From: a virus | Reading direction: 5' to 3' (one strand) | Length of the DNA stretch: 20,742 bases | Virus record (IMG/VR): IMGVR_UViG_3300044993_000192 | Span: 1-20,742 of that record | Shown here: positions 4,701 through 19,519 of the stretch, piece by piece | Position numbering within the stretch: the stretch's first letter is position 1 | Layout of the letters: each line of letters starts with the position of its first letter | Program-made: the position numbers and the translations under genes | The notes under the pieces: generated by a model | What the model was told of the DNA's origin: nothing | Databases searched by the model: none | Seen by the model: only the letters and a program-made list of their open reading frames with translations

Positions 4701-5618
4701 TTACTTCTTAGCCCTAACCACTCTTGCCTTGCGAGATTCTGCTATCGGGCTCTTTGAATTTACACCACTATCAGAGTGCTTTGGTTTAGGAACTGCTGTT
4801 AGTGATGCTTTCTTGTGTCCTGGCGCATTTTTAAACTGTCCTGCTCCTGGAACTTCTTTCTGTCCCTTTGTATAAAAGTTATTTGGGCTCTTTGGTCCGT
4901 TCGGAACAGGTTCAGAATCTCCAGCAAATTTAACTGCACCAGAATTCATTCCTCTCTTGCCCGAATCAGCTGGAACAGGACTTCTTTTATTGCTTCCATT
5001 ATCACCTGGGGTTACTGAAACTTTTTGAAGTTGTACTGCTTCCATAACTTCATCAGTATCTTCATCTTTTTCATCTTTTTCATCTTCTTCATCATCTAGA
5101 TCCATGTCTTCTTCATCATCTAGATCCATGTCTTCTTCATCATCTAGATCCATGTCTTCTTCATCATCTAGATCCATGTCTTCTTCATCATCTAGATCCA
5201 TGTCTTCTTCATCATCATCTTTTTCTTTTGTGATTCGGTCAAATTCAGCAATTAACTCGTCTAATTTGTCCTCAATTCTGATTAGTGTTTCTTCCTGTTC
5301 ATCAGTGTCATCAAGACTTTCCGATTCGTCATCATCAATGCCGCCAAATTCATAGTCCATATCACTATCATCTAGGTCGTCATCTGTTTCTGTGTCAAAA
5401 TCATCATCATCGTCGTCTTCCATCATGCCGGATTCTTCAGCATTAATTTCATCAAGAAGATCACCTACTTTACCGCCCATTTCTTCTTCTTCAGACATAA
5501 TGGATTCATAAATTTCTCTTGACTTTTCTACAACAATTTGATGGAATAATTCTCTTGCCTTTTCGATTTCTTCATTGATGACATAATTCATCAACTTTTC
5601 ATATTTTCTACTATCCAT
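4701..5618 (-). CDS. 67: Acidic prohead core protein, T4 gp67-like
   Basis: The N-terminal ~60 residues (EEIEKARELFHQIVVEKSREIYESIM) form a basic/hydrophobic helix like that of T4 gp67 (AARKLFAEAM...). An extremely acidic stretch follows, as in T4 gp67. The protein is 305 aa against 80 in T4. The extra length comes from Asp/Glu runs (about residues 67-190), including five exact tandem copies of EEDMDLDD, and a basic Ser/Pro/Lys-rich tail (about 200-305) ending in ARVVRAKK. The role would be that of an internal head-core protein assembled with gp22 and processed by gp21. AGGAG ten bases before the ATG is a good ribosome site, and a late-type promoter lies upstream. Its place between portal and protease matches T4. 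The symbol rests on the N-terminus plus synteny. Confidence 0.8.
   Translation of the reverse strand: MDSRKYEKLMNYVINEEIEKARELFHQIVVEKSREIYESIMSEEEEMGGKVGDLLDEINAEESGMMEDDDDDDFDTETDDDLDDSDMDYEFGGIDDDESESLDDTDEQEETLIRIEDKLDELIAEFDRITKEKDDDEEDMDLDDEEDMDLDDEEDMDLDDEEDMDLDDEEDMDLDDEEDEKDEKDEDTDEVMEAVQLQKVSVTPGDNGSNKRSPVPADSGKRGMNSGAVKFAGDSEPVPNGPKSPNNFYTKGQKEVPGAGQFKNAPGHKKASLTAVPKPKHSDSGVNSKSPIAESRKARVVRAKK
5083..5202. repeat. Five exact 24-bp tandem repeats coding EEDMDLDD
   Basis: Five back-to-back identical 24-bp units, plus a partial sixth to about 5216, lie in frame in the acidic core protein gene. Identity includes third codon positions, which indicates recent slippage or unequal recombination. 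There are no spacers, so this is not a CRISPR array. Confidence 0.95.
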
Positions 5619-7774: not shown

Positions 7775-10700
7775 TTAAATCATGTTAGATTTATACATTT
7801 TATCTCTAACATCATTTCCTTGCTCTACAGCATCGATCAAATCGTCTAATTTATCTATTAAAATCTGTAATGTTTCTTGATTTGTGTTAGAAATTTTTTC
7901 TATTATTTCTTTTTCTATTGTAGAAGTGGTTGTTGTTATATCATTAGTTGTAGTTGAGGATGGCGTAGTAGCTAATTTCATTAAAATTGAGTTAGTATCA
8001 AGTGGTGCGACCATTTCTGAACCGTGAAGTTCAGCTGGGTAACCCGAACTTGGACCGCTAAAAATACCTCCCTGTGCTGCTTTGATAGGTGACTCAATAT
8101 GCATGTGATCTTTGTGCCCTTTATCACCCCAAATTACTTTAAACCCTCTACTTTTAACATCCGCAGCTATATGATCAAATATTCTTTTCCAATTTTCATC
8201 ATTCCATTCTTTAATTCCTCCTGGTGCATTTACATCAATTGCCAAATCTTTGTAATGCTTAGAGTTTTTAGAATGTCCGCTAGTAATCTTTTTTCCATCA
8301 GGAGTAAATACTGAGTGCTCAGAAACTTTGACGCCGTATGTTCTTTCCAAATATTTACCTAGTTCAGCTATTCTATTGCTTTCTGTAATCGTCGACGTTG
8401 AATAATCATTTCTGCTATCAGCTAGCTGAGCATCATTATTTTTTGCCAATCTTACTGCATTGGCTATTCGTTTATTTCTATGTTCACCAGTAGATACTTC
8501 ATATTTCTTATCAATCAGCACAGCCGCTTCCGCTGCATCCTTGATTTTTCTTAATTTTTCTCCTACGCGCTTCTTTTCTCCTTGTGTCAATTCATAATGT
8601 ACAAACTCCATTTGAGTATAAAAATCATCCCAGGATGTTCCTCTTTCTTTGGCAAAACGTTTTAAGTTTTCAAATCTTTCTTTATTCCATTGTGCTATAC
8701 CATATGAATGTAATCCGGGTCCGGCATCATTTTTGTTTACTGCTCGAGGATTTAAATTAGGTCCGGATTCTTGTTGTAGATTTCCCACTATACCGGCTGC
8801 CTGTTCCCTACTCCAACCTTTATCCATGAAAAACTTCATAGCCTTAGCTGCATTTTCGGTAGAACCAGCACCGTCCGCTCCTAATCCGCTGAAGTCTCCT
8901 TCAGTATCATAAATGTCTGTTGTTGAACCAAATAGTGACAATTTAGCTAGATTATCAAATTTTTTAGTAATCTCATCTAAGCTAATTCTCAAGTTTTTAA
9001 AAGACAATTCATTAAAATTATGTCTTTTAATTTCTTGGTCTAGCATTTCCTCATTTGCTTTTGTAGTTTCTTTAAATGAATTTTTTAATTTTTCAATATA
9101 TTCTATTAAAGTTTCTTGCTCTTCTTCATCGCTAAATGTACTCAATAACTTTTTATTTTTGGGTTTAATCACTTCTTCAAGTGAATTAATACTTTGTGTT
9201 AAACTATTAACACTATTCTTATTAAATGCAGTTGATTTGTTAAATGAGGAAACTATTCGACCAAAAGATTCAACCATTCTTCCAAAATAAGTTACAAATT
9301 TACCAAAATTTGTAATATATTTTGTATCTGTGTTATTTTTATTGTTTACTGAGGCATTTGCACTTAATTTAGACAAATGACTGGCTAAATTTTCTATTGA
9401 CTTAGCCGCTTTAATAAATCCTTTTGTAGCTGTGACATATGAAGAAACTATTTTACCAAAATAAGTTACAGATTTACCAAAATTTGTAATATATTTTGTA
9501 TCTGTGTTATTTTTATTGTTTACTGAGGCATTTGCACTTAATTTAGACAAATGACTGGCTGAATTTTCTATTGACTTAGCCGCTTTAATAAATCCTTTTG
9601 TAGCTGTGACATATGAAGAAACTATTTTACCAAAATAAGTTACAGATTTACCAAAATTTGTAATATATGACAGATTTTTTGTATCTGTGTTATTTTTATT
9701 GTTTACTGAGGCATTTGCACCTAATTTAGACAAATGACTGGCTGAATTTTCTATTGACTTAGCCGCTTTAATAAATCCTTTTGTAGCTGTGACATATGAA
9801 GAAACTATTTTACCGAACGAAGCAATTATTTTACCAAAATCATTTACACTTCTACTAAAGTGTTCATTTACACTTCTACTAAAGTGTTGATTTGATGTTT
9901 TATCATTGCTTTTGATTTCAGGTGTTTGTTTTGTAATTATTTTTTTACCGGTTATCTTGTCCCAATTTTGATATAGACCTATTCCTCCGCCAATCAACCC
10001 TCCTATTAAAGCCCCTACTGGTCCTCCAAACATTGCACCCGTTCCTGCTCCGGTCAAAGCATAAGACCCTGTAGAAAGTGCTCCACTAGTTTTAGTATAC
10101 CCGGCTTGTTCTGCTGCATCAGCACCATAACTCAAGGCTAATCCGCCTAATATTGAACCTGCACCCCCCGCTAACCTACTTATACCAAATTTACTTAATT
10201 TATTTCCAGCATTTGAAAGCATTTCCCCAAATTTTCCAAATCTAGAAGTTTTAGTTTTAGCAGTAACAGAATCAGGAGAAGTAACAGAACCAATTTGACT
10301 TTCTGGCATAAAAACGCCGCCTGCTGTTTTTACATATCTAGTTCCGCCCTCGTTTAAAACATCAGGTGTTTTAGGTAAATTATTAACTGGAGAAAAAGTT
10401 GAACCAAGATTACCAGGAGATGTAGCTACATTTCTTGACAAGACATTCATAATTTGTAAATTCTTGAATAAACTCCAAGTTGCAAGACCCCCTAACCCTA
10501 ATCCTGCTGCTGCCATAATACTAGCAAATATTTCAGAACCATAATTGTTGGGAGTTGTATTTTTAGTTATATTTTCAAGTGTCGTGGCAGCTAAATTAGC
10601 TGCTTCTGTCATGGCTTCTATTGCAGGAACAACCAAATTTATTTCGTTTGCAAATTTTTCAAATTCTTGTCTTAATTTGATTTCTGCTTCAGTCAATTTG

Positions 10701-12217: not shown

Positions 12218-13042
12218 ATGCAAAATAATCCGCTACAACAATATTTTAGAAGACCAGCAGTCTACATTAGTTTACCTTCAAAAGGTATAGGATATTCCCC
12301 AGATGATCTTGATATGCCGGAAAATAAAGAACTTCCGGTATACCCTATGACGGCAATTGATGAAATTACTGCTAGAACACCAGATGCATTATTTAACGGA
12401 ACCGCAGTAGTAGAACTTATAAAAAGTTGCGTTCCAAACATAAAGAACCCATGGGCTATCAAAAATATAGACATGGATGCTATTCTTATCGGTATAAAAG
12501 CCGCTTCTGATAGCGAAACACTTGAAATTGACACCAAATGTCCTAACTGCGGAACTGAGTCAACTTATAGTGTTAGTCTATTAGCAGTTCTAAGTAATTT
12601 TACTGCTGGCGATTATGATACCCCTCTTGAAATAGGTGATTTAAAGTTTAAATTTAAGCCTTTAACATATAAAGAAATGAATCAAGCATCTATGGGACAA
12701 TTTGAAGTCCAAAAATTTCTAAATTCTATTATAGAAATAGAAGATATAGAAGAAAGAAACAAAGCAACAAAAAATGCTTTAGAAAAAATCACTTATTTAA
12801 CTATGGAAATTTTAGCAAAAACCATTGAATATATTGAAACACCAAATATAAGAGTGGACGACGAGCAATTTATTTTAGATTTTTTGAAAAATTGTGATAA
12901 TAAAATTTATAATGCTATCAGAGATCATAGCACAAAACTTAAAGAAGGTACTGAAATTAAGCCAGCACATATTAAGTGTTATAATTGCGGTCATGAATAT
13001 GACCAGCCATATACTATTAACCCAACGGATTTTTTCGGCTAA
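12218..13042 (+). CDS. 26: Baseplate hub / tail-assembly protein, T4 gp26-like (zero-frame product)
   Basis: The 274-aa product has the features of the T4-like baseplate-hub family: YISLPSKGIGY near the N-terminus, LPVYPMTAIDEITARTPDALFNG at about residues 39-61, and a central NPWAIKNIDMDAILIGIKAAS segment. Two CxxC pairs (C108/C111 in CPNCG and C254/C257 in CYNCG) could bind one zinc. T4 gp26 is about 208 aa. The start has AAGGAA upstream and a late promoter. The gene ends ...PTDFFG-stop; TTTTTTC just before the stop and a hairpin after it suggest that some ribosomes shift to the -1 frame and continue to 13266. Its position beside the tape-measure gene fits a role as tail-assembly factor or chaperone (inference). 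Confidence 0.88.
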   Translation: MQNNPLQQYFRRPAVYISLPSKGIGYSPDDLDMPENKELPVYPMTAIDEITARTPDALFNGTAVVELIKSCVPNIKNPWAIKNIDMDAILIGIKAASDSETLEIDTKCPNCGTESTYSVSLLAVLSNFTAGDYDTPLEIGDLKFKFKPLTYKEMNQASMGQFEVQKFLNSIIEIEDIEERNKATKNALEKITYLTMEILAKTIEYIETPNIRVDDEQFILDFLKNCDNKIYNAIRDHSTKLKEGTEIKPAHIKCYNCGHEYDQPYTINPTDFFG

Positions 13043-13078
13043 GGCTTCTTTATTCTAAGCCCGAAGAAATAAAGAAGC
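13030..13078 (+). promoter_or_regulatory. Programmed -1 ribosomal frameshift site (slippery heptamer plus hairpin)
   Basis: Zero-frame codons read T_TTT_TTC at 13030-13036, a classic X_XXY_YYZ slippery heptamer, two codons before the TAA stop. After a 7-base spacer comes an 11-bp perfect stem (13044-13054 with 13068-13078, extendable by a G-U pair) with a 13-base loop. AGCC in the loop can pair with GGCT at 13037-13040, so a pseudoknot is possible. The -1 frame then stays open to 13266. Slippery site, spacing, structure and open frame all agree. Confidence 0.8.
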
Positions 13079-13266
13079 TCATAGACGGGTATGAAAAAGA
13101 AGTTGATAATATAAAAAGAAGTGCTCTCTCTATGGCTTGGCATATGAGAGGAGGAGTTTCTTATACAGATATTCTTAATATGAGTTATGCTGAACGCAAA
13201 CATATTCAAAAAATTATTGAAGATAATATGGAAATTACCAAGAAGAGCGGACTTCCTTATTTTTAA
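13036..13266 (+). CDS. C-terminal extension read by -1 frameshift from the gp26-like gene
   Basis: This frame is open from 13021 (a -1-frame TAA is at 13018-13020) to the TAA at 13264-13266. There is no ATG, GTG or TTG before 13132, and that ATG has no ribosome site. Translation of the whole stretch gives a protein-like sequence: a helix SKPEEIKKLIDGYEKEVDN, then ALSMAWHMRGGVSY, then KKSGLPYF at the end. If reached by -1 slippage the fusion would be about 349 aa (273 + 76). It resembles the two-frame tail-assembly chaperones of other tailed phages, such as lambda G and GT, in organisation; I do not claim sequence homology. In T4 the gene after 26 is 51; whether this segment is related to gp51 cannot be decided here. 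Confidence 0.75.
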   Translation, partial: RLRLLYSKPEEIKKLIDGYEKEVDNIKRSALSMAWHMRGGVSYTDILNMSYAERKHIQKIIEDNMEITKKSGLPYF

Positions 13267-13359
13267 TCTTTTTTAAATATTTTTCCGGGAAACCATTGTT
13301 TTTATTTTTTTTTTTTTTTTGGATATCTATATCATTTTAAAGTTTAGACCAGTATCAAG

Positions 13360-13379
13360 AGTTGTTCTAACGAACAACT
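13360..13379 (+). repeat. 8-bp inverted repeat
   Basis: AGTTGTTC and GAACAACT flank a 4-base TAAC loop. It is a compact hairpin about 95 bases beyond the end of the frameshift frame. Confidence 0.6.
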
Positions 13380-13418
13380 AGAACTTCGCTCCATTCCATT
13401 CCGCTCGTTCTATTTTTT
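13379..13418 (+). terminator. Possible terminator for the gp26-like transcript
   Basis: TAGAAC and GTTCTA form a 6-bp stem with a 22-base loop, followed directly by TTTTTT on the plus strand. The stem is short and the loop long, so the call is tentative; position after the rightward gene supports it. Confidence 0.35.
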
Positions 13419-13526
13419 AAATAATTTCTGTTTTGTTTTTTTTTTTGGATATTTTTCTGGGGAACGCATCTTATATAATTTAGATTTAGGTCTATTTTGG
13501 AACTGCTTGCCGGGAGGAGCAACCAT

Positions 13527-13551
13527 GGTAGTGCTTATTTCAAGCACTACC
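13527..13551. repeat. Perfect 10-bp hairpin
   Basis: GGTAGTGCTT and AAGCACTACC flank a 5-base loop. No T-run follows on either strand, so it is not an ordinary terminator. Confidence 0.7.
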
Positions 13552-13556
13552 AAATT

Positions 13557-13578
13557 GACAACTGCTTGCACGGTTGTC
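13557..13578. repeat. 6-bp inverted repeat
   Basis: GACAAC and GTTGTC flank a 10-base loop, immediately after the 10-bp hairpin. Confidence 0.45.
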
Positions 13579-13712
13579 GCTTTGCCGCTTTTCCCCGACA
13601 AACTAGCCTTTTTATGCTGTTTGCCGCCACCGGTTACGCTGTAAGGTATTATGGGCTGTAGCGGGGTCCTGGAGCTATCTATATTTTGCTTTACTACCCC
13701 TGTAACGCATGT

Positions 13713-13743
13713 TCTATGGAATCAAAAGCGGAGTATCCATAGA
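13713..13743. repeat. 8-bp inverted repeat
   Basis: TCTATGGA and TCCATAGA flank a 15-base loop, at the start of the possible gene fragment. Confidence 0.5.
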
Positions 13744-13786
13744 CTCATTCAAGGTTCGCCTACCAACGAGAGCCTTGTCGGTATCT

Positions 13787-13819
13787 TTGACCGTTACGGT
13801 CAATGACCGTTACGGTCAT
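13787..13819. repeat. Twin 17-base palindromes
   Basis: TTGACCGTTACGGTCAA and ATGACCGTTACGGTCAT each have 8-bp arms around a single T. Their centres are 16 bp apart and they share one base. The arrangement is like paired operator or initiator-binding sites. Confidence 0.7.
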
Positions 13820-13834
13820 GCATACTCCAGATCC

Positions 13835-13859
13835 GAGTGCATTCAGCAGTGGTGCACTC
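13835..13859. repeat. 7-bp inverted repeat
   Basis: GAGTGCA and TGCACTC flank an 11-base loop, 15 bases after the twin palindromes. Confidence 0.5.
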
Positions 13860-13909
13860 TCAAGGAGGGCCTCATAGAGACCGCCAAATTTTTAAGAGCT
13901 AATGGCTTG

Positions 13910-14017
13910 GTGCCTAATGTGCCTAGTTGTGCCTATGATGTGCCTAATGTGCCTAGTTGTGCCTATGATGTGCCTAGTTGTGCCTATGATGTGCCTAATG
14001 TGCCTAGTTGTGCCTGA
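13910..14017. repeat. 30-bp tandem repeat built from GTGCCTA sub-units
   Basis: Two exact 30-bp units (13910-13939, 13940-13969) are followed by a 21-bp shortened unit (13970-13990) and a final unit that diverges after about 26 bases. Each unit contains three sub-units of 9, 10 and 11 bp that begin GTGCCTA. The array overlaps the last ten codons and stop of the nuclease gene on the opposite strand. Confidence 0.9.
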
Positions 14018-14565
14018 TTAATAATTTGTGAGTTTTCTTGTGTTGTAATTGAATAGCTTTTTAATAAATCTTTGTTAAGATCAAAAAAGTGTTGAAATTC
14101 CATTATAATCCATTCACCTGAATTTTCTGAATTATAATGAATAAAATTATCAGCGACCCAAGTATATTTAGATTCAACCGCTATAAATTTACCTTTTCTA
14201 GTAAATTTCATAAAAATTATATTAATGTCATTTTTTTTAGCAACATCCAATACTTGTTTTGCCCAACTGTCAAAAATAGGACACTTACCAGTAGGAAGTT
14301 GATGAAAAGGAAAATCTTTATATGACTTGGCCTCCGCATTAAAGTTTATCCAATCATCAGGAGGAACAATATCACCTTTAAAAGACCGGATTTGATTATT
14401 ACTAAGAGTTTCGGTTCGATGATTATTGGTCCCCCCAATGTAGGCGCCGCTGTGCGCGGCCCTTACAAAAGAAGATTCATATAATTTTGACATATAGGTA
14501 GCGACTTCACGCTCCCATGCTCCGCCTTTTGCTTTTTGTGTACTTGTCATACTATAATTTATCAT
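13984..14565 (-). CDS. PD-(D/E)XK nuclease (RecB/Holliday-resolvase-like)
   Basis: The 193-aa protein has the core of a PD-(D/E)XK nuclease: GGAWEREVATYM with E18/E20, SFKGDIVPP with D65, and NAEAKSYKDFPF with E78-x-K80. It probably cuts or resolves branched or broken DNA in recombination and replication. It lies 21 bases after gp46 on the same strand, so it is probably co-transcribed with gp47 and gp46. Either Met1 or Met6 could be the start; no Shine-Dalgarno is seen, only an A-run. The last ten residues (AQLGTLGTS region) are coded by the tandem repeat that invades from the neighbouring island, so the native C-terminus may have been replaced. T4 uses an unrelated gp49 for junction resolution; equivalence is not shown. 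Confidence 0.78.
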   Translation of the reverse strand: MINYSMTSTQKAKGGAWEREVATYMSKLYESSFVRAAHSGAYIGGTNNHRTETLSNNQIRSFKGDIVPPDDWINFNAEAKSYKDFPFHQLPTGKCPIFDSWAKQVLDVAKKNDINIIFMKFTRKGKFIAVESKYTWVADNFIHYNSENSGEWIIMEFQHFFDLNKDLLKSYSITTQENSQIINQAQLGTLGTS

Positions 14566-14586: not shown

Positions 14587-16674
14587 TTATTTTGTTATAT
14601 CTGTTGAAGTATTATATGTTGTAAATCCGTTTTCTTTAATAACCTTTAAGACACTTGAAACTCTTCCCGCTAATTCTTCTCTATGACTTATTAACCAAAT
14701 AGATTTTCCTCGATTTCGGCTCATATCTTTTAATACTGCCATGGAGTTTTCAACACCTACAGTGTCCATTCCACTATCAATAAGTTCATCTATAAATAAA
14801 GTATTGATTGGTGAGTATAAACTTTCCCAAACATCACGAAAGGCAAAGCTAAGACTCAAAATTAATCGGTTTCTTTCACCGCGGCTCAAATTATCAAAGT
14901 CCAGTTCTCTGCCTAGTTCAGTGATTTCAACAGTTAAATCATTCTTAAATATTACGCTATGAGGTAATCCAATTTTATCCAAATAATGGGTCAAACGTGC
15001 ATTCAAATAGGACAAGTTTTGATCAATTATCTTTTTTCTAACAAAGCTATCTTTATTAGTAAGAACATCTAATAGAAATTTTAAATGATCTCCTATTTTA
15101 GTTAATTCATTGATTTTATCAAAGGAAATTTCTTGCAATGCTTTCTTTTCCATATCAACAATTTGTTCTTGATAAGGATCTACCTCTGCCAACTTAGTTT
15201 CTATAAGAGATTCTATATTTTTTAATGTATTTTTATGTTCAATAGCTTCTCTTTCACTATCATAAATTGTTACTGGCATTGGACCAGGGTCGACTTCTGA
15301 CATTTCATTTAACTGTTCAAGGTATGGATCTTTTTCATTTTTCTTGGCATTTATTAACTGTAACAGTCTATTAATTTCTGAACTATGCTGTATAGCCTCA
15401 GTTTCAGTTTTATAGTAGGTTATAGGTTTTTCGCCCAAAACAAATAGAGAATTTTTATTTTTTTCTAATTCATTTTGGGTTTGGGTAATTTCGTTTTTTA
15501 CTGTTTCTAACATGGAAATTTTGTTGTTTATTACTTTGGCATGATTTTCATCATGAAAATCTTGACCACAAGCGTAACACTTATTATTGCGAAGAACTTC
15601 TATTTCTTTTTCTAATTGTTTTAATACTTTTTCATCTTTCTTTAATAAAGAAGATAATCTCTCGATGTTTTTTTCAATTGCTTCTAATTTAACTTTATTG
15701 TTTTCATATATTTTTAATTCGGCATGTGCTTTTAATTCAGCTTCAATGTCAATATGACTTAATGCATCATATTGTTTTTGTAGTATAGCTAAATCATTTT
15801 CTTGTTTTTGCTGCCAAGCTATATGCCTTGCTTTAATCGAATCATATTGTTCTTTTATTCTTACTAATTCATTATATTTAGCCAATTCTTTATGTGCTAA
15901 TAATTCCTTTTCAATGTCAATCTTTGAAAGTTCTTCATAATCATAAACTAACTTTTTTAAAGTTTCATCATGCTGTTTTTTCCATAAATTTTGTCTGCGC
16001 TTTAAACTTTCAATTTGCTCTTTAACTCGCTTATTAGCTTCTTCAATAGCCTTTATTCTAAATTCTTCTTGTAGTATTTTTTCTTTATTTTCTCTAATTT
16101 TTTCTTTTACTAATTCAGCCTTTTCACTTAAAAGAGTGATTCCCAAAAGTTGTTCAATAATATTTCTTTGGTCATTGGCTTTCATGGACAAAAAAGGTTC
16201 AGTATAGGTATTTAATACTACGATGTGCTTAAACATATCGCTTGACATACCTATAACACGTTCTATTACAGCCTGTGTTTCTTTATTTTCGCCTTGTGCT
16301 TCGTTACTATCTTCTTTATTTTTTTGAAGTTCGTTGTTTATATAAAATTTTAAAATATTTGGCTTTCTACCTCGTTCAATTCTATAATCAACACCATTTA
16401 CATTAAATTCTAGGGTAACCAACATATTTTTTCCGTTGGTTCGATTAATAAGATTGTCTTTTCTTATTTGATTTATAGGATTTCCATAAAGAGCATAACA
16501 AAGCCCTTGTATAAGAGTTGTTTTTCCGGTGCCGTTACGGGAGCCGTTTCCTCCCAAATCTAAATTTTCACCTAAAATTAGAGTAAGTTCTTTGTTATCA
16601 AAGTTTATCGCTTGACAAACTGCGCCAATAGAAAGGAAATTTTTTAATGTAATATTTTTAAGGATTATACTCAT
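14587..16674 (-). CDS. 46: Recombination endonuclease subunit, T4 gp46 (SbcC/Rad50-like)
   Basis: This is the ATPase subunit of the gp46-gp47 complex, which resects DNA ends for recombination-dependent replication. In its 695 aa the Walker A is GTGKTT (residues 48-53) after the typical GENLDLGGNGSRN. Two long coiled-coil arms flank a zinc-hook CYACG near residue 365. The ABC signature is LSRGERNRL near 596, Walker B is LFIDELID near 625-632, and an SGMD D-loop and an ISHREE switch follow. It is longer than T4 gp46 (560 aa) because of the coiled coils. The ATG overlaps the gp47 TGA as ATGA, so translation is coupled. Confidence 0.96.
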   Translation of the reverse strand: MSIILKNITLKNFLSIGAVCQAINFDNKELTLILGENLDLGGNGSRNGTGKTTLIQGLCYALYGNPINQIRKDNLINRTNGKNMLVTLEFNVNGVDYRIERGRKPNILKFYINNELQKNKEDSNEAQGENKETQAVIERVIGMSSDMFKHIVVLNTYTEPFLSMKANDQRNIIEQLLGITLLSEKAELVKEKIRENKEKILQEEFRIKAIEEANKRVKEQIESLKRRQNLWKKQHDETLKKLVYDYEELSKIDIEKELLAHKELAKYNELVRIKEQYDSIKARHIAWQQKQENDLAILQKQYDALSHIDIEAELKAHAELKIYENNKVKLEAIEKNIERLSSLLKKDEKVLKQLEKEIEVLRNNKCYACGQDFHDENHAKVINNKISMLETVKNEITQTQNELEKNKNSLFVLGEKPITYYKTETEAIQHSSEINRLLQLINAKKNEKDPYLEQLNEMSEVDPGPMPVTIYDSEREAIEHKNTLKNIESLIETKLAEVDPYQEQIVDMEKKALQEISFDKINELTKIGDHLKFLLDVLTNKDSFVRKKIIDQNLSYLNARLTHYLDKIGLPHSVIFKNDLTVEITELGRELDFDNLSRGERNRLILSLSFAFRDVWESLYSPINTLFIDELIDSGMDTVGVENSMAVLKDMSRNRGKSIWLISHREELAGRVSSVLKVIKENGFTTYNTSTDITK

Positions 16675-17687
16675 AGTGAACGATAAATCTCTAGCAATAA
16701 TTTAGGATCAAAGTATTCGCTCTCGATGGCAGCCAGATTATCTATAACAATTTGGTCTACACTTTCAAATTTTATTTGACCTGGAGCCAAATCTTGAGCA
16801 TATTGTTCTGATTTTATTGGTATTAAGGACATTTCACGTATATTATACTTAGGAATTAATGTTTCACGAATAAAATTGGCTTCCTCATATGAAATGTCAA
16901 TGTCTAAATGTATCCTTACACTGCTTTTTGGTAATAGTAAGCTATCAGGATTATCTAAAACTTCACTTAGTTTGTAAACTTTGTATAGTGGTTGATCAGG
17001 CCAAGAATAGAATACAGGTTCTTTTCCCCATTCAAGTATCATCATGCCTCTTTGGTCATCACCGGCATCGGCATAGTTATGTGGAAAAGCATTTCCTATA
17101 TACCAAATATTATTTCTTGATTGTCTTTTATGAAAATGACCACTGAATACAGTTTCAAAGTTTGAAACATGACTATCTTTTATTTCTCCGTGGTCTGGCA
17201 TAAGAACTTGAGCGTTCATGTAAAAGTTAGGCAGTTCAAAATGTCCAAATAGATATTTTCCTTCAAGTGTGGGGAGTTTTTTATAATCGTCACCTACTAA
17301 CCAAGGAGCAATAACAACGTCTTTGGTAATAAACCAATCATTTATTATTTTTACATTTGGTAAATGTTTTGCCCACTCTACACTATGTATATCACGCTTA
17401 TCACGATAATATAAATCGTGGTTTCCAGGGATAAAATATACTATATCAAAATTTTTACTTAGTTTTTCTAATCCTCTAAGACCAAATTGTAAAGTTTGTA
17501 TGTTAATACTGGCCCTATGATGGTTATAATCCCCCAGAAAAAAACAGGTTTCACAATCTTCTTCTTTAGCTTTTTTAATAAACCAATCTATAAAATTATC
17601 GCAGTCAGTGTTATGTATAATGCTGTTTGACTTTAATCCATAATGGATATCGGTCATGACGGCGGCTTTTTTAAATAAATTACTCAT
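16671..17687 (-). CDS. 47: Recombination endonuclease subunit, T4 gp47 (SbcD/Mre11-like)
   Basis: This is the metal-dependent phosphoesterase nuclease partner of gp46. The 338-aa length equals T4 gp47. All calcineurin-like motifs are present: D13-x-H15 (TDIHYG), G52-D53 (GDYNHHR), GNHD at residues 88-91, GHFE near 147 and GHFHKRQ near 180. It is followed with a 4-base overlap by gp46. In T4 the transcript order is 55-47-46; here the order is kept but a homing endonuclease lies between 55 and 47. The start context has only a weak AATTTCAAG before the ATG, and the 110-base gap upstream is AT-rich without a clear late-promoter motif. Confidence 0.96.
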   Translation of the reverse strand: MSNLFKKAAVMTDIHYGLKSNSIIHNTDCDNFIDWFIKKAKEEDCETCFFLGDYNHHRASINIQTLQFGLRGLEKLSKNFDIVYFIPGNHDLYYRDKRDIHSVEWAKHLPNVKIINDWFITKDVVIAPWLVGDDYKKLPTLEGKYLFGHFELPNFYMNAQVLMPDHGEIKDSHVSNFETVFSGHFHKRQSRNNIWYIGNAFPHNYADAGDDQRGMMILEWGKEPVFYSWPDQPLYKVYKLSEVLDNPDSLLLPKSSVRIHLDIDISYEEANFIRETLIPKYNIREMSLIPIKSEQYAQDLAPGQIKFESVDQIVIDNLAAIESEYFDPKLLLEIYRSL

Positions 17688-17797: not shown

Positions 17798-19519
17798 ATG
17801 TCATTATCAGAGCTTAAAAAACAATATGAAGATGAAAAAATTACTTTAATGGAATTTACCCATAGAGTAAAAAAATTTAAAGAAGAACTAGATTTAATTT
17901 ATCCACAAAATATTTCTTTATCGGGCAAAGCCTATCTTTATTTACATGATTATAACTCTGAGGTAGGTTGGTGTAGTATTAGTAATAAAGAAAAGAGATT
18001 TATAAGCATGTCTAAAGGTTATCGCAAATTTTGCGGGAACATGGACTCATGCCAATGCAATTTACTTGCTAAAAATGAATTTTGGAAAAATGCAGATATT
18101 GAGAAAATTAACAGCAAAAGAAAAGAAACAGTAAAAAGTAAATATGGGGTTGACGTAATAAGTAAACTTCCAGAAATAAAAGTAAAAGCTGCCAATACTT
18201 GTTTTAAAAAATATGGTGTAAAATCACCTACACAAAATCCTGAAATACTTAAAAAATCGTCAATGACTTGTTTAAAAAATAACGGTGTAGAATGGCCACA
18301 ACAAAATAAAAACATATATGAAAAAACAAAAAATACATTTTTAAACAAATACGGGGTTGAACGACCATCTAAGCATCCTATCTTTAAAGAAGCAATAAAA
18401 AACACTTGTATTAAAAGATATGGTGTCGTAAATGTGATGAAAAATGAAAACTATCGGGATAAAGTAAAAATATCCAAAAAATTTAATAGTTTTGAAGAAT
18501 TAAGTAAATTTAGAAAAACCATAACACCCTTATTTACCGCTAAAGAATATGCAACGTGTAATAGTGATGATTTACTTAAATGGAAATGTTTGAAATGTAA
18601 CACAGAATTTTATGAAATAGTAAGATATGCCAGAGATAATGCTTGTCCAACATGCAACCCAAAGAATTTTACTTGGGGTGAAATATTAATAAAAGAATGG
18701 CTAGATAATTTAAATATAAACTATGTTTTTGGTTCATATGATATTATTCCTCCTTATCAGATAGACTTTTATATCCCTGATTTTAATTTAGCTATAGAAT
18801 TTAATGGTTTATATTGGCACAGTGAATTAGCAGGCAGAGATAAAAATTATCATTTTGATAAGTTTAAAATGTGTAAAGAAAAGGGCATAAGATTAATACA
18901 AATATTTGAACATGAATTAATGTATAAAGAAGATATAGTTAAACAAAGAATTATAAATGCACTAAAGTTACAAACTAATAAAATGGGAGCCAGAAGTCTT
19001 AAATTGATTAAAATAGATTCTAAGACAGCTAAAAAATTTTTTGATGAAAATCATTTACAAGGAGGAATTTTTACCAAATACAACTACGGTTTAATAGATA
19101 AAGAAGGAAAATTATATTCAGCTATGGGGCTGTCTAAATCTAGATTTTCTAAAAAAGAAGCAGAATATGAATTAGTAAGATTTGCTTCCCTAAAAGAATA
19201 TTCAATTTCAGGAGCAGCTACTAAATTATTTCATGCTTTTATAAAAGAATTATCTCCTGCCTCAGTAATTTCTTATGCTAATTTAAATTGGGGAATAGGT
19301 AATGTATATGAAAATATGGGATTTAAATTTTCACATTATAGCAGCCCAAATTATTGGTATTTTAAATCGCCAGAAGAAGTATATAGTAGGGTAAAATTTC
19401 AAAAACACAAACTCCCTAAAGAATTACATCATTTAGGGAGTGAGTGGGATATCATGAAACATCTCAAATGGAATAGATTTTGGGATTCTGGCAATGCGGT
19501 ATATGTATATAAATCATAA
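17798..19519 (+). CDS. Vsr-like (EDxHD-type) homing endonuclease with repeat, zinc and GNAT-like domains
   Basis: The 573-aa protein has four parts. Residues about 110-225 hold four or five KYGV...(P/N)...KN repeats, the type found as DNA-binding repeats in phage homing nucleases. Residues about 262-288 hold two CxxC pairs (WKCLKC and ACPTC), a zinc ribbon. Residues about 292-374 form a Vsr-like nuclease with WGEILIKEW, YQIDFYIPD, AIEFNGLYWHSE, NYHFDK and QIFEHE, which fits the EDxHD catalytic pattern. The last ~170 residues form a GNAT-like domain shared with the gene fragment at 1-569. AAAAAGGA six bases before the ATG is a good ribosome site. It is oriented against its neighbours and overlaps the end of gp55 by 6 bases. 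No enzyme target can be seen directly. Confidence 0.88.
   Translation: MSLSELKKQYEDEKITLMEFTHRVKKFKEELDLIYPQNISLSGKAYLYLHDYNSEVGWCSISNKEKRFISMSKGYRKFCGNMDSCQCNLLAKNEFWKNADIEKINSKRKETVKSKYGVDVISKLPEIKVKAANTCFKKYGVKSPTQNPEILKKSSMTCLKNNGVEWPQQNKNIYEKTKNTFLNKYGVERPSKHPIFKEAIKNTCIKRYGVVNVMKNENYRDKVKISKKFNSFEELSKFRKTITPLFTAKEYATCNSDDLLKWKCLKCNTEFYEIVRYARDNACPTCNPKNFTWGEILIKEWLDNLNINYVFGSYDIIPPYQIDFYIPDFNLAIEFNGLYWHSELAGRDKNYHFDKFKMCKEKGIRLIQIFEHELMYKEDIVKQRIINALKLQTNKMGARSLKLIKIDSKTAKKFFDENHLQGGIFTKYNYGLIDKEGKLYSAMGLSKSRFSKKEAEYELVRFASLKEYSISGAATKLFHAFIKELSPASVISYANLNWGIGNVYENMGFKFSHYSSPNYWYFKSPEEVYSRVKFQKHKLPKELHHLGSEWDIMKHLKWNRFWDSGNAVYVYKS

Follow-up and report, generated by a model that had tools for sequence, protein, structure and literature searches.

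To our knowledge, very few phage RNAs of the size considered here have been described, namely, GOLLD, ROOL, and pRNA, and their functions are mostly open. Phage phi29 encodes the structured pRNA, which does its work as RNA, and the genes for GOLLD and ROOL lie near tRNA islands. GOLLD and ROOL, both large RNAs of phages, assemble into oligomers made of RNA alone, ROOL being represented by an example of 659 nt and GOLLD by many members of over 800 nt (PMC12286853). Here we present a large folded RNA that was previously undescribed: it is absent from Rfam release 15, and a literature search returned no description of such an RNA. It is encoded in a 20.7-kb IMG/VR virus fragment of a T4-like phage, the whole 20,742 nt of which is referred to as the window, and the major capsid protein of this phage is 65 to 67% identical to its counterparts in the Rak2/PA5oct/Phosso group of jumbo phages. 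The RNA comes after the gp47-gp46 and PDDEXK nuclease genes on its own strand and fills the convergent intergenic gap, facing the gp26-gp51 genes (Table 1). Our preferred reading, to which we assign a probability of roughly 60%, is that the minus strand of about 13357 to 13895 is a stable noncoding RNA gene of a jumbo T4-like phage and that its product acts in trans; that this strand encodes a conserved structured RNA we regard as practically certain. The ends of the RNA are estimates derived from conserved flank hairpins.

Table 1. Coordinates of the RNA parts and the neighboring genes in the window (n, members of the alignment)
Feature	Position	Strand	Remarks
gp26-like baseplate hub gene	12218-13042	+	PF12322, E 1e-14
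Small gp51-like ORF	13037-13266	+	Start uncertain; convergent with the RNA; equivalent ORF annotated in jumbo relatives
Whole structured RNA gene (probable extent)	13357-13895	-	5' end ~13895, 3' end ~13357
Two 3'-terminal hairpins	13360-13411	-	13380-13411 and 13360-13379; present in the sister, and in relatives with altered sequence
Conserved core aligned in A9	13509-13869	-	55 members
P10 hairpin	13527-13551	-	GGTAGTGC/GCACTACC
P9 pseudoknot	13592-13655	-	CCC at 13653-13655 with 13592-13594; crosses P6; 97.1% paired; first pair UA35/GC6/CG4/AU4/UG2, all four Watson-Crick pairs (n = 55), not formed in this register in the window itself
P8 hairpin	13596-13626	-	94-96% paired; double changes already between window and sister alone
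P6 long-range helix	13633-13706	-	13702-13706 with 13633-13637; inside it lie hairpin P7 (13697-13700 with 13663-13666) and a conserved stretch, ACAGNGNAACCGG; 96.1% paired, with GC48/AU5/UG2 and CG49/UA6 among its pairs (n = 55)
P5 hairpin	13713-13743	-	TCTATGG/CCATAGA; 97.4% paired; double changes at all 7 pairs (n = 55)
P4/P4b hairpin	13750-13777	-	CAAGG/CCTTG, inner TCG/CGA; P4: 100% of cells paired, GC41/CG11/UA3 and GC34/AU21 (n = 55)
Doubled palindrome	13788-13818	-	TGACCGTTACGGTCA twice; stands in for variable hairpin P3, whose sequence and length vary among relatives
P1 enclosing P2	13825-13867	-	P1: 13864-13867 with 13825-13828, 96-100% paired, double change in three pairs; P2 hairpin: 13853-13855 with 13839-13841, 94% paired, double changes at 4 of 4 pairs (n = 55)
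Tandem array	13910-14015		Just past the RNA 5' end, outside the conserved RNA; overlaps the end of the PDDEXK gene; unit differs in the sister
PDDEXK_15 nuclease gene	13984-14565	-	PF24608, E 5.7e-20; directly upstream of the RNA, same strand
gp46 and gp47 (Rad50/Mre11-like) genes	14587-17687	- (as RNA)	AAA_23, Rad50_zn_hook, and Metallophos matches

Elsewhere in the window, a 573-aa probable homing-type endonuclease (17798 to 19519; DUF7487 and a restriction-like domain) lies between gp47 and the next gene, and a short ORF at 159 to 569 resembles its C-terminal part. A probable GIY-YIG/NUMOD homing endonuclease (586 to 1398) directly adjoins the major capsid gene, and a gene near the portal gene contains an Asp/Glu-rich tandem repeat of DLDDEED units (5104 to 5360).

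The evidence for a conserved fold comes from alignment A9, which comprises 55 distinct members and covers the core at 13509 to 13869. The core RNA of about 330 to 360 nt folds into helices P1 to P11, compensatory change keeping the fold, and the crossing of P6 and P9 makes a pseudoknot. A total of 73 pairs were defined by hand with the help of RNAalifold, the structure being drawn on the same alignment as was scored; in the 55 members, 92.2% of the cells are paired versus 31 to 41% with partners slid, a control that flatters the pairing percentage because the pairs were chosen on the alignment scored. Double changes occur in 53 of the 73 pairs (38 in shuffled alignments) and in 605 cells (181 in shuffled alignments), and the covariation score of 0.408 compares with 0.151 after shuffling (0 of 500 shuffles reached 0.408) and with at most 0.078 after sliding. 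The four-way exchange at single pairs, such as that of the first P9 pair and that of P4 (Table 1) and AU20/UG13/UA11/CG6 in P8, is not explained by the choice of pairs on the scored alignment. The window copy forms 54 of the 68 consensus pairs; its P3, P7b, and P11 are replaced or weakened.

The minus strand of 13357 to 13895 has a fold z of -5.65 (in SD versus shuffles), and the slightly larger stretch 13340 to 13900 gave -4.4 on the plus strand and -4.7 on the minus strand, both far beyond chance. The initial folds being equal on both strands, a plus-strand RNA was also considered; it was rejected on the asymmetry of G-U and A-C cells and on promoter- and terminator-like signals in relatives, all pointing to the minus strand. 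Among the 55 members, G-U cells outnumber A-C cells by 183 to 65 on the minus strand, an excess that would be swapped on the other strand, and the RNA is therefore read from the minus strand.

The original prediction, made from the letters of the window, had described a structured, GC-shifted island at 13267 to 14017. Such an island exists: no convincing gene lies between the gp51-like ORF, ending at 13266, and the PDDEXK gene; the GC content is 0.484 at 13501 to 14000 versus about 0.27 to 0.38 nearby; and the inverted repeats, two T-runs, and tandem array are borne out by many hairpins, including the doubled TGACCGTTACGGTCA palindrome, by both T-runs, and by an array ending near 14015. The conserved element has narrower limits (about 13357 to 13895); the T16 run at 13299 to 13320 and the tandem array are, unlike the element, not conserved. 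A structured noncoding RNA, one of the identities then proposed, is strongly supported by covariation, compensatory change exceeding both shuffled and slid controls, but the RNA is on the minus strand, opposite to the one examined at that time. The other proposals did not survive. A 102-aa frame said to begin like a replication initiator has no Pfam match above the cutoff and is not conserved in relatives, where tblastn returned six weak hits, those among the five matches listed covering residues 1 to 55 or 5 to 55 only, and a rolling-circle Rep element was rejected on these grounds. Neither the remnant of an ssDNA phage or plasmid nor the nonautonomous mobile element is supported: the sister and 71 of the 79 other relatives have the element at this very site, each of 8 large records of the clade carries a single copy, and no Rep family matches. 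Presence in relatives together with an intact conserved protein had been named as refuting the prediction, and only the first half of this applies, the element being found in nearly all relatives but not coding there: the RNA core contains no conserved ORF, with a median longest ORF of 38 to 44 aa among members.

Relatives were found with the gp26-like gene as the anchor. Alignment of its protein fetched 80 loci, one of which is the sister (IMG/VR contig 3300002920_000062), leaving 79 others. The gp26-like protein of the sister is 84% identical to that of the window, and the element is at the same site and strand with 74% identity, several compensatory changes between the two falling within one hairpin. 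To its left, the sister carries an extra 490 nt that include a duplicated tail-gene fragment, and its tandem array has a differing unit, so neither belongs to the element; an apparent second copy of the element in the sister (97485) is merely the tail-gene fragment duplicated into the sister's gap. The sister array (L003:7100-7245) repeats TGTGCTATAATG, a match to the extended -10 sequence found with the RNAs of enterobacterial jumbo phages described below, directed away from the RNA.

An iterated profile search seeded with the window and the sister located the element in 71 of the 79 other loci, in every case downstream of gp26 and on the other strand from it. Six of the eight misses are contigs ending at that place; the remaining two (L243 and L262) have a gap of several hundred nucleotides after gp26 with no detectable RNA, possibly holding yet another version. 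Counting confident matches, the element is single copy in 8 records of the clade of 155 to 524 kb. The first exact motif searched, CCGGTTACGCTGTAAGG, matched the sister alone, and a second, TTTACAGNGCAACCGGTNGC, occurs in at least 120 viral stretches, all 118 newly returned loci among the matches listed being confirmed; in the genomes of 84,980 cellular species it returned five stretches, none of which was confirmed as the element. The RNA occurs in more than 100 sequences of related giant phages, in the identical place wherever checked. Blastn of a family member against 50,697 phage records gave no match.

In isolated jumbo phages the equivalent gap is mostly recognizable, in some of them after one to three further small genes past gp26. 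Some 0.65 to 1.5 kb downstream of gp26 is unannotated or holds only tiny ORFs in 121Q, GAP32, CBB, Munch, BF, pEa_SNUABM_19, and XbC2 and likewise in Kaldavass, Hallingskeid, XaC1, PA5oct, Cassandra, XacN1, RAS14, and Phosso; the gap is not evident in Atu_ph07, SCTP-2, and Vibrio phage 2.275.O, and 0.36 kb is left in RaK2. In Cassandra (OR805292.1, PA5oct-like), a perfect TTGACA-N17-TATAAT promoter lies at the end of the main gap, on its minus strand (L013, about 8895 to 8925), and three same-strand partial copies of another, unrelated-looking large noncoding element occur at 117334, 170939, and 235112.

The gap of the enterobacterial and Xanthomonas phages contains a second covarying RNA, with compensatory change at 40 of 97 predicted pairs. 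Its core model is 98.7% paired and scores 0.470 versus at most 0.152 when slid, two of five shuffle measures being not extreme (42/500 and 58/500). This RNA lies on the strand opposite gp26, has a conserved extended -10 sequence (TGTGNTATAAT), and has a terminator-like hairpin in many of its copies. Its covariance model finds five copies each in XbC2, Ea19, GAP32, CBB, Munch, Kaldavass, Hallingskeid, and XaC1, four in 121Q, and three in RaK2, on one strand throughout within each genome, as expected because these genomes are mostly transcribed one way. The copies are unannotated and roughly 35 to 95 kb apart (XbC2, Ea19, GAP32, CBB, Munch, and XaC1; loci L072 to L101). In each of the six genomes tested, the intervals between copies are more regular than chance would give (P 0.0002 to 0.02; the genomes are related, so these values are not independent). 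Four further copies (two in BF and one each in 121Q and GAP32) are in gaps without a convincing gene, immediately ahead of same-strand genes. Profile and covariance searches from the enterobacterial family to that of the window, and from the latter to the others, gave no match, and the link between them consists of the word ACAGNGNAACC together with position, strand, and architecture. We propose, tentatively and as rather less probable than the contrary, that the RNAs in these gaps (in the window clade and the enterobacterial, PA5oct-like, XacN1/RAS14, and Phosso lineages) descend from one ancestral large RNA that diverged beyond sequence recognition and was duplicated to about five regularly spaced copies in the enterobacterial lineage.

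As to how the RNA of the window might work, it would be made either by read-through of the gp47-gp46-nuclease transcript followed by release or from an internal promoter, would persist as a stable RNA, and, once folded, would act in trans by binding a phage or host protein or by assembling with itself, like ROOL and GOLLD. Against this, neither a clear promoter nor a strong terminator was found near the copy in the window. Action in trans rather than in cis is modestly favored by the elaborate fold, the invariant loop words, and the single copy per large record, and also by the covarying RNA of the other jumbo clade, which has promoter-like sequence of its own and lies in the equivalent gap and at other sites. 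The chief alternative is a cis-acting 3'-UTR element that protects, terminates, or processes the gp47-gp46-nuclease mRNA and insulates it from the convergent gp26-gp51 transcript. We consider it the less probable account. That the RNA begins directly behind a stop codon suits such an element as well and counts against our preferred reading. In 53 of the 55 members the RNA follows the PDDEXK gene on its own strand within tens of nucleotides of the coding end (median of 67 nt between gene and core), it fills the convergent gap, and a conserved GACACCNNGTC word stands at the end of the CDS, near which GACAC[CA]NNGTC is kept in 48 of 55 members. The fold, however, is far more elaborate than is usual for terminators or exonuclease barriers, and the enterobacterial equivalents are not directly downstream of gp46, EndoVII lying between on the other strand, come with a promoter-like sequence of their own, and have paralogues that lie ahead of other genes.

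It is quite improbable that the RNA belongs, as a divergent representative, to one of the known catalytic or structural classes (RNase P, intron, hammerhead, GOLLD, ROOL, or pRNA), despite its similar size, scattered RNase P-like words, and a hammerhead-like CAGAUGA..CGAA in the enterobacterial family. No Rfam gathering hit was obtained for the window, its sister, 16 members, or five jumbo relatives, the matches from permissive scans were all at chance level with no GOLLD, ROOL, or OLE among them, and RNase P covariance models had no match at E <= 10 in such scans; the hammerhead-like word has one core base changed, and its GAA becomes GCA in some copies. Group I and II introns were rejected, the element lying between convergent genes rather than interrupting one and having no Rfam intron match. 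The hairpins could instead be needed as DNA, in a replication origin, cruciform substrate, or packaging site. Such a DNA-level element would suit the adjoining recombination nucleases (gp46/47 and PDDEXK here, EndoVII or RusA in relatives) and the even spacing of the enterobacterial copies, but it is largely refuted, and we hold it to be very improbable: G-U pairs are tolerated on one strand only, the covarying pseudoknot is something DNA would not need, and no GC-skew switch occurs at the copies in the GAP32, PA5oct-like, and Munch genomes. The GC shift, palindromes, tandem array, and 102-aa frame could also suggest the remnant of a mobile element, a cryptic gene for a protein, or a join made in assembly. 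These are already refuted, to the point of being negligible, by the same-site covarying RNA in relatives; against them stand also the lack of a conserved ORF, the single copy in 8 large records, and the finding of the element at that site in the sister and in dozens of independent assemblies.

To conclude, covariation gives the RNA strong support, and almost all relatives examined retain it. The second covarying family resides in an unannotated gap of the cultivable phages 121Q, GAP32, Munch, and BF, so that its expression, deletion, and structure are directly testable; if the common-ancestor reading is true, these RNAs would imply a so far overlooked, RNA-based function at the core of infection by giant phages. 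Compared with the enterobacterial RNA (121Q, GAP32, CBB, Munch, BF, XbC2, and XaC1), that of the window shares the equivalent gap after gp26/gp51, the strand, and covariation but differs from this counterpart, which has a promoter-like sequence of its own and up to five copies per genome. Like phi29 pRNA it is a phage-encoded structured RNA, but the pRNA Rfam family has no match here, the size differs, and there is no sign of a packaging role. From ROOL it is set apart by the missing Rfam match, a smaller core, a constant position behind a nuclease gene in jumbo T4-like phages, and the lack of neighboring tRNA genes (none in the window and none in 29 loci of relatives), and from GOLLD by the same lack of an Rfam match and nearby tRNA and by another size and location. 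By Rfam and by neighborhood it is a member of neither family and is comparable to them at most in kind: like GOLLD, it is a large, ornate phage RNA known from metagenomes, and like ROOL, it is a large, pseudoknotted, phage- or prophage-encoded RNA without a protein product.
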